Below, piece after piece: positions 75 to 3,311 of a DNA stretch of 39,693 bases. The stretch comes from Peptococcaceae bacterium. Lineage in GTDB: Bacteria > Bacillota > Desulfitobacteriia > Desulfitobacteriales > Syntrophobotulaceae. Where the stretch lies: the NCBI GenBank assembly GCA_012839895.1, contig DUML01000071.1, positions 1 through 39,693 of the forward strand, in the 5' to 3' direction. The notes beneath the pieces are model-generated. The model saw only the letters and a program-made list of their open reading frames with translations. It was not told the origin of the DNA and searched no databases. Numbering within the stretch: position 1 is the stretch's first letter; each line of letters starts with the position of its first letter. Both the position numbers and the translations under genes were made by a program.

Positions 75-191
75 CTTATACATACAAGAAGTAGTTTACA
101 CAAACTTCTTGACACTATCAATTACCCTAAATAGTGGTATTATTTATCCACAGGAATAATCTAATGTTAAATTACAATTGAGGTGTTTAAA

Positions 192-821
192 TTGAAAGTA
201 TTGCTTATTAACGGGAGCCCTAACGCCAAAGGCTGTACCTATACGGCTTTGTGCGAAGTTGCCAAAGAATTAGAAAGCGAAAACATAGAAACAGAAATCT
301 TCCAGGTCGGGAAAGAACCTATCCGTGGCTGCACAGCCTGTCGAACTTGCGTAAGGACTAAATCCGGTAAGTGTACCTTTAACGATGATCCTGTAAACAC
401 CGCCATAGAAAAAGCTGCAGAAGCCGACGGTTTTGTCTTTGGTTCTCCGGTTCATTATGCCGGGGCATCCGGCCAGATCACGTCCTTTTTAGATAGGGTC
501 TTTTACGCCGCCGGAAAAAACTTTGCTTATAAACCAGGTGCGGCAATAGTAAGCTGCCGTCGTGGAGGGGCTACAGCGGCTTTTGATCAGCTGAACAAAT
601 ACTTCACTATCTCCAATATGCCTATAGTATCTTCTCAGTATTGGAATATGGTTCATGGGAATACCCCGGAAGAAGTTAAGCAAGACTTGGAAGGAATGCA
701 AACCATGCGTACCCTCGGCAAGAATATGGCCTGGCTTTTAAAATGTATCCAGGCCGGTAAAATGGCGGGGGTTAGTTTACCTGTTTGCGAACCTAGAGTT
801 GTAACTAACTTTATTCGTTAA
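192..821 (+). CDS. NADPH-dependent FMN reductase / iron-sulfur-flavoprotein-like protein
   Basis: A flavodoxin-fold reductase that probably binds FMN and moves electrons in the cytoplasm. The N-terminus has the phosphate-binding loop of the family (LLINGSPNAKGCTYTAL). Residues about 45-65 contain clustered cysteines (GCTACRTC ... GKC), as in iron-sulfur flavoproteins and in single-domain reductases that lost the cluster. GSPVHYAGASGQ is the second flavin-contacting loop. The length of 209 residues is normal. I chose TTG at 192 because GAGGTG at 180-185 lies 6 nt before it; the in-frame GTG at 183 is inside that ribosome-binding site. The partner and substrate are unknown. A strong terminator follows, so it is probably a single-gene unit. 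Confidence 0.85.
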   Translation: MKVLLINGSPNAKGCTYTALCEVAKELESENIETEIFQVGKEPIRGCTACRTCVRTKSGKCTFNDDPVNTAIEKAAEADGFVFGSPVHYAGASGQITSFLDRVFYAAGKNFAYKPGAAIVSCRRGGATAAFDQLNKYFTISNMPIVSSQYWNMVHGNTPEEVKQDLEGMQTMRTLGKNMAWLLKCIQAGKMAGVSLPVCEPRVVTNFIR

Positions 822-1011: not shown

Positions 1012-1746
1012 TCAAACGTCAGCAAAAATATCGGCCAAAGCTATCCTTAAATCCGGAAAAACCGTAGACTGAATTGTATCTCCGTGCAAGTAGTTTTGCG
1101 GGTAGTTAGGTTCCCTTTCTTCAGTGAAGGAATATTGAATTATGCTTTTTGTTTCCGGGTTGACGATCCAGTATTCTTTAATACCGCTTTTCATATAGAG
1201 GTTCAGTTTGGCAACCATATCTTTGGCTTTGGTAGACGGTGACAAGACTTCCACCACCAGGGTTGGAATGCCTTCATATTTACCCTTCTCATTAACCTTG
1301 TCGTGATCGCAGATCACGACTACATCCGGCTGGACAACATTTGGATCTTCTTCAAACTTGGTGGCATAACCGAAAAGCCGTATATCCAAAGGGGCAGTTA
1401 AAGATCGGCAGGCCTTTCCGCGAAAATAGCTATTAAAATGCCATGCTATTTCGCTGACAACCACTTGATGGGTGAAAGAAGGCGAAGCTAACAAATAAAT
1501 CTCACCGTCGATCAATTCATACCTTTGATCAGAGGATTCAACCAGCTCCATATATTCTTCATAGCTTATTTTTTTGGTCGTTTGGTATTTTGGGGTTTCT
1601 TCGTGCACCAAATAGTACTCCGGTTCGTTATAGCGGATGAGTTTGGCAACACTCTTGCCGTTCTTGGTAATAATAATATCTTCCTTATCTACGAGAGCAA
1701 GATATTTGCCAAAAGCATTTTGTAAATCGGTGGTGTTAACACGCAT
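1012..1746 (-). CDS. Phd/YefM-like antitoxin domain fused to Uma2-family PD-(D/E)XK nuclease
   Basis: Two domains are visible. Residues 1-40 look like a Phd/YefM antitoxin DNA-binding domain (VNTTDLQNAFGKYLALVDKE, then IIITKNGKSVAKLI). Residues about 58-244 are a Uma2-family (DUF820) nuclease-like domain: YELIDGEI near 76-83, QPDVVVI with Asp141, LVVEVLSPSTKAKD with Glu166, and the YMKSGIKEYWIVNPE block. The PD...E core appears intact. Uma2 proteins are usually about 185-200 residues and lack the N-terminal domain, so the extra segment is a real addition. The gene lies 153 nt downstream of a mazEF-like pair in the same direction, behind a set of 22-nt-spaced repeats that could be its operator. 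The biological role of Uma2 proteins is not established. The Phd domain suggests DNA binding and autoregulation, which is inference. Confidence 0.85.
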   Translation of the reverse strand: MRVNTTDLQNAFGKYLALVDKEDIIITKNGKSVAKLIRYNEPEYYLVHEETPKYQTTKKISYEEYMELVESSDQRYELIDGEIYLLASPSFTHQVVVSEIAWHFNSYFRGKACRSLTAPLDIRLFGYATKFEEDPNVVQPDVVVICDHDKVNEKGKYEGIPTLVVEVLSPSTKAKDMVAKLNLYMKSGIKEYWIVNPETKSIIQYSFTEEREPNYPQNYLHGDTIQSTVFPDLRIALADIFADV

Positions 1747-1771: not shown

Positions 1772-1892
1772 ATTTAGCTATTATTTTAAATATGTATAGC
1801 TATAATGTCAAATATTTATAGCTATTATAAAGCAATATTATATCCATTTTTTAATTCAATTGCAGCTATTATTTTAATCAAATTATAGACAT
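1772..1892. repeat. 22-nt-periodic AGCTAT(T/A)AT repeat array in promoter region
   Basis: AGCTAT occurs at 1776, 1798, 1820 and 1864, that is at exact 22, 22 and 44-nt steps. The position expected at 1842 holds a degenerate unit, and a related AGACAT is at 1887. The 14-mer AGCTATTATTTTAA is identical at 1776-1789 and 1864-1877. The core is palindromic (TATAGCTATA at 1795-1804). The array fills the gap between the mazF stop and the start of the Phd-Uma2 gene, so it covers that gene's expected promoter. A spacing of about two helical turns suggests a protein bound on one face of the DNA. Function is inferred from position only. Confidence 0.65.
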
Positions 1893-2579: not shown

Positions 2580-2879
2580 TATTATTCATATTATCTTGCC
2601 ACAATCAAAGGAGAATACTAATTTCTTTAAAATCATTCACCAATTACAACTGTAGCTGCTTACCGTTTCGCAATTTCGCCAACTTGATCATAAATTTAAG
2701 AATTATGTATTCACAATGCCTTTTAGGACCAAATTTTGGCGATTCTTGCTACCCCTGGGCTTATGGAGTATTTTTTTATGCCAAGAAAATATATTGACTA
2801 AAAGAGCTGAATGTTATACGCTTACTTCGTAACCGAATATTTCTATTTCGTAGTATATGTTTTGAAAGGAGGTTTGGTT

Positions 2880-3311
2880 ATGTATGCGGAATTGGAATTC
2901 TTCTCCTACATATTTGGCATCAAAGAACTATTATATAAACGAATCAAAGCCCTCTTCGAAAATGAGGGACTTAATTCTACTGAGATTATGGTTATCTACC
3001 TAATCCAGCATAAATTGCAGGAATGTAAAACAAGTGATCTGGCAAAGGCTTTACATTTACCCATGAGTACCTTGACCGGAGTGATTGACAAATTGGTAGA
3101 AAAAGATATCGTTTTTCGAGAAAACGATCCGGAAGACCGCAGGGTCATTTTCGTCAAGCTAAAGCCTGAATTCAAAGCCAAAGCAGAACATTGTATGCAT
3201 ACTCTGGAGGAAACACTGCAGGAAATGACAGAAAAACTTGGTGTCGAATGGTTTACCGATTTTACCCAAAAACTGAAAACCTTTAAAGAAATACTGGAAA
3301 ATAGGGGATAA
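2880..3311 (+). CDS. MarR-family transcriptional regulator of the efflux operon
   Basis: A 143-residue winged-helix regulator. Helices around 30-75 (STEIMVIYLIQHK, TSDLAKALHLPMSTLTGVIDKLVEK) form the HTH, and the wing is FRENDPEDRRVIFVKL with the conserved D-x-R-R. I start it at 2880, where AAAGGAGG (2865-2872) lies 7 nt upstream; the open frame extends to 2811 without a ribosome-binding site. The stop codon is 2 nt before the MFS pump start, so it is the first gene of the efflux operon and probably represses it until a ligand binds. TTCGTA is repeated 21 nt apart upstream (2826 and 2847) and may be part of the operator, though this is weak. A TTGACT box at 2794 is a possible -35. Confidence 0.9.
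   Translation: MYAELEFFSYIFGIKELLYKRIKALFENEGLNSTEIMVIYLIQHKLQECKTSDLAKALHLPMSTLTGVIDKLVEKDIVFRENDPEDRRVIFVKLKPEFKAKAEHCMHTLEETLQEMTEKLGVEWFTDFTQKLKTFKEILENRG

Follow-up and report, generated by a model that had tools for sequence, protein, structure and literature searches.

A triad of TAGCTA palindromes interlocked with a sigma-A-type promoter precedes the gene for a Phd-Uma2 fusion protein in the window, the whole 39,693-nt stretch of Peptococcaceae DNA analysed here. The array is probably an autoregulatory operator of the fusion gene, bound by the Phd domain of its own product (probability about 0.85), because the triad is kept with the fusion, is absent before Uma2-only genes and changes its site type with the clade of the Phd domain. 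Judged from sequence, the regulation is most likely of the established YefM/Phd kind, but newly arranged, on a single gene that joins antitoxin and nuclease parts in one protein.

The fusion gene (1012-1746, minus strand) encodes 244 amino acids. Residues 3-43 (about 1618-1740, minus) form a Phd/YefM domain that matches PF02604 above the cut-off and also TIGR01552, which supports a DNA-binding domain of this type. Residues 63-237 (about 1036-1560, minus) form a Uma2 domain of the PD-(D/E)XK nuclease kind (PF05685, E 2.7e-31). Both Pfam families are matched by all 67 fusions tested, and the acidic and lysine residues D141, E166 and K180, which do not vary among 67 sequences, place the C-terminal part in the Uma2 family as a predicted nuclease. 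The predicted structure has a mean pLDDT of 84, with about 90 for the Phd part and a poorly defined, low-confidence linker at residues 41-60. Foldseek aligns the nuclease part with the DUF820 structures 1wdj, 3ot2, 6okh and 9y1l. The N-terminus superposes on two DNA-binding domains, that of P1 Phd (4zlx) and that of VapB46 (6jqy), with 39-42 residues aligned at 1.0-1.6 A; these matches have probability 1.00, and their weak E-values (0.17 or more) reflect the shortness of the domain. A profile search with the Phd part gave no clear PDB relative by sequence, but the fold search did find relatives. The Uma2 part also matches the PADLOC candidate defence models PDC-S03 (E 6.7e-61), a label on which a literature search returned nothing.

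All elements of the promoter region lie on the minus strand. A ribosome-binding site, GAAGGTGA (1751-1758), is read from the sequence upstream of the start codon, and the promoter consists of a -35 box TTGACA (1806-1811) and a -10 box TAAAAT (1783-1788) separated by a 17-nt spacer. Operator site O3 (1819-1824) is located 5′ of the -35 box, O2 (1797-1802) sits inside the spacer with its start 9 nt past that of the -35 box, and O1 (1775-1780) follows immediately 3′ of the -10 box. An earlier note on this DNA had listed AGCTAT cores at 1776, 1798, 1820 and 1864, had them cover the promoter of the fusion gene and had read them as an operator. Those positions are reproduced exactly, the true repeat unit being the palindrome TAGCTA in the orientation of the fusion gene. 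The promoter coverage and the operator reading both gain support from the interlock with the -35 and -10 boxes, from conservation and from a blind search (below). The 22-nt phase that the note described is exact in the window for 1776, 1798, 1820 and 1864 but not across orthologs, where the conserved spacing is 22-23 nt.

The array occupies a gap of 153 nt between the end of mazF at 1900 and the start of the fusion gene at 1746, both genes being on the minus strand. Equally periodic arrays are rare in shuffled sequence: among 20,000 dinucleotide-preserving shuffles of the gap, a 6-mer of any kind recurring four times at multiples of a single period occurs at 5e-5 and one recurring three times at 0.7%, and the 22-nt autocorrelation is matched in 0.04% of 5,000 shuffles when any lag is allowed, values that are not conclusive by themselves for a region chosen by eye. 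The array is therefore accepted as real because it is conserved in relatives. Chance periodicity of A+T-rich DNA might be suspected in a gap selected by eye and with an A+T content of 80%, but the shuffles together with conservation in 33 orthologs leave it a negligible probability and refute it for the three core sites.

A chance origin is possible for three weak copies further upstream, TGGATA (1841-1846) and TAGCTG (1863-1868, the 1864 core of the earlier note), both in phase, and TGTCTA (1886-1891), one nucleotide off phase, all on the minus strand. They lie at -100, -122 and -145 relative to the fusion start codon and so continue the phase of the array to within one nucleotide. When the 230-nt stretch upstream of the fusion gene is scanned with a matrix built from other genomes only, the strong sites rank first to third and the weak copies fourth to sixth among some 216 positions, with scores of 10 to 13 bits and -1 to 2.5 bits, respectively. 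Of the copies first proposed, only the three strong ones are conserved. No such extension is found in the orthologs of the window's fusion, and an array extending upstream as a general feature is rejected on this ground. The three weak phases may lengthen the array or may be remnants of decayed sites; we regard them as additional sites, weak or decayed, that are specific to the lineage of the window.

Conservation was assessed in 33 upstream regions of orthologs, including that of the window, which span 63-100% identity and several families; those at 63-83% identity come from related genomes and GTDB contigs. TAGCTA occurs 78 times upstream of the orthologs compared with 1.8 times in shuffles, and pairs at 21-23 nt are found in 32 of the 33, in line with the spacing first noted. 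A full triad, each site with at most one mismatch, is present with the promoter in 28, at a spacing of 21-23 nt that is mostly 22. In these 28 the sites keep their place on the promoter, O2 starting 9 nt past the -35 start in 27 and O1 starting 8 nt past the -10 start in 26. The array of repeated palindromes, overlapping the gene's own promoter and kept in relatives, is as expected for an autoregulated operator of the Phd/YefM type. The units 1775-1796 and 1797-1818 share 82% of their 22 nt, which would fit a local duplication, and could be taken for a structural or mobile repeat with no regulatory role, such as a tandem-repeat relic, a transposon end or an RNA hairpin. This is highly improbable, as TAGCTA and both promoter boxes are conserved across the orthologs whereas the letters between them vary, and the position of the array relative to the promoter is maintained.

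No neighbouring gene is conserved around the fusions of the orthologs, so the array travels with the fusion, and a co-transcribed partner gene is rejected. One fusion locus (L041, about 2160-2382) has some 130 extra nucleotides between an intact triad and the fusion start, containing a stretch like a ribosome-binding site and a short frame. In another genome (G412; locus L151, 2382-2954) a second Uma2 gene, 29% identical, lies directly downstream of a triad-bearing fusion.

The association also holds when the pattern is searched blindly. Three TAGCTA sites at steps of 21-23 nt occur at eight places in 398 genomes of the phylum, six of them directly upstream of a fusion; three of these six fusions were newly found and are 67-69% identical to the protein of the window. 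Of the remaining two places, one is a tandem repeat of 23 nt in the genome of the window and the other falls within a coding frame. The tandem repeat (G000:C65:35393-35444; L149, 1501-1552) begins with TAGCTA, has no fusion nearby and lies between genes of flagellar and chemotaxis type, as judged by eye from their translations. Upstream of 20 Uma2 genes without a Phd domain, a single TAGCTA is found in 5.1 kb of sequence. A search for two sites only (TAGCTA N16 TAGCTA) in 151 genomes yields 25 places, 10 at fusions; those away from fusions are no more numerous than the places that a reversed control pattern yields, and two sites alone are therefore not specific. Three of these off-target places (L124-L126) were inspected and contain neither a Phd nor an Uma2 gene.

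In a wider set of 81 fusions, the more distant members carry TAGCTA at clade-specific distances of 9, 17-18 or 30 nt, and one clade carries CGTACG-like sites. On the protein tree a branch supported at 100/100 sets the 22-nt class apart, and the spacing and site classes require 9 label changes compared with 43.9 for shuffled labels. YefM depends on Arg10 and Arg31 for operator binding (PMC4803016, a review). At the alignment position of Arg10 in E. coli YefM, 61 of 63 TAGCTA fusions have Gln and all 16 CGNNCG fusions have Lys, counts that are not independent, the Gln/Lys switch being essentially one evolutionary event; the exceptions are two Lys proteins (L031, L063) that have TAGCTA. The sister clade with CGTACG-like palindromes (L032, L034-L037, L111, L112, L114, L117-L122) has an N-terminal extension in addition to Lys, not Gln, at the Arg10 position. 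These patterns bear on whether the fusion gene could instead be controlled through the sites by a different regulator encoded elsewhere, for which a MarR-family gene at 2811-3311 in the window would be a candidate. That is unlikely, given that the same array stands before fusions in many families without common neighbours, is neither seen before Uma2-only genes nor scattered over other promoters, and varies in site type along with the Phd domain of the fusion itself.

Some genomes (G031, G034, G012, G128, G141 and G114) each contain fusions of two or more operator classes, which raises the question of cross-talk. A spacing code, in which paralogous fusions share TAGCTA and are distinguished by how far apart their sites lie (9, 17-18, 22 or 30 nt), each controlling only its own gene, is a tentative and rather doubtful idea. 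Fusions of differing spacing class found together in, for example, G031, G034, G012 and G128 would agree with it, in a family where a further clade has switched to CGTACG.

For autoregulation by the fusion protein the following scheme can be proposed. Dimers would dock on the three palindromes through the N-terminal Phd domain and exclude RNA polymerase from the strong -35/-10 promoter, so that the protein would limit its own amount by negative autoregulation, and neighbouring dimers might help each other on the operator. We infer the Phd domain as binder, repression by binding and mutual help of dimers, as well as what the nuclease domain does and what purpose the system serves in the cell. 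With only about 43 residues, followed by the low-confidence linker, the Phd part is short, which limits the operator reading. Cooperative binding on one face of the DNA is plausible, 22 nt corresponding to 2.1 turns (22/10.5). The family as a whole does not keep to same-face spacing, however: distances of 9, 17-18 or 30 nt in sister clades show that the 22-nt phase is not generally needed.

The regularity of the spacing may be due in part to the placement of one site beside each promoter box, since the O2-O1 distance follows the length of the promoter spacer: in most cases it is 21, 22 or 23 nt when the spacer is 16, 17 or 18. Carried further, and consistent with the other spacings of other clades, this would mean that the sites are bound independently and that TAGCTA is simply placed around the -35 and -10 boxes with no cooperation of dimers, a variant within autoregulation, and hence not exclusive of it, that deserves serious weight at somewhat below even odds. 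Yet O3 touches no promoter box and still lies 22 nt (18 cases) or 23 nt (9) from O2 in 27 of the 28 triad orthologs, and 21 nt in the other. This fixed distance argues for an additional constraint between the sites of the putative autoregulatory operator.

In the neighbouring mazF region on the minus strand (1900-2513), the MazF/PemK-type toxin gene (1900-2247) overlaps an upstream gene for 90 amino acids (2241-2513) that is placed where an antitoxin would be and has no Pfam or NCBIfam match. The array was also considered as an element of mazF, which is rejected; it sits downstream of mazF and accompanies the fusion in other genomes.

No paper describing the operator or the Phd-Uma2 fusion was found in the literature searched, which covered few subscription journals, so that the lack of an earlier description carries little weight. 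Uma2 proteins are abundant and have solved structures, though no established function was found for them in the same literature. A conserved self-operator would indicate that the Phd-fused branch of Uma2 is tightly controlled at its own promoter, as one would expect of a dangerous nuclease, and would give a ready assay. The natural variation between clades in site letters and spacing makes these fusions a good system for studying both DNA choice by Phd/YefM domains and the way in which operator spacing encodes specificity.

The closest known systems are the E. coli yefM-yoeB and enterococcal axe-txe modules, in which paired TGTACA palindromes 12 bp apart mediate autorepression (PMC4803016, PMC7730913); two TGTACA sites 12 bp apart were confirmed in the sequence upstream of yefM. 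In common with the fusion they have an N-terminus of the Phd/YefM family and, inside the promoter, short palindromes built on a 6-bp core (PMC4803016, PMC7730913), with core and spacing conserved. The fusion differs in its TAGCTA core and in having three sites at 22-23 bp (21-23 nt among the orthologs), and its array is a variant, not a yefM-yoeB operator. It also has no separate toxin gene, the partner being the Uma2 nuclease domain on the same chain. The phd-doc module of phage P1 has the same Phd DNA-binding fold (4zlx) and a repressor of an antitoxin family that acts on the promoter of its own gene (PMC4803016), as proposed for the fusion. In contrast to the two genes of phd-doc, with Doc as co-repressor, the fusion is one gene, with no evident part for a separate toxin in co-repression. 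It lacks the adjacent toxin gene of a two-gene type II toxin-antitoxin system, and the gene downstream of it in the window (183-821) runs toward it. The C-terminal domain is that of the Uma2/DUF820 family (COG4636), represented by PF05685 and solved DUF820 structures. Makarova et al. 2009 (PMC2701414) called this family a likely solo toxin, describing mainly cyanobacterial genes that are rarely linked to antitoxins, whereas the Uma2 domain studied here is fused to a Phd domain and stands behind a conserved, probably autoregulatory, operator.
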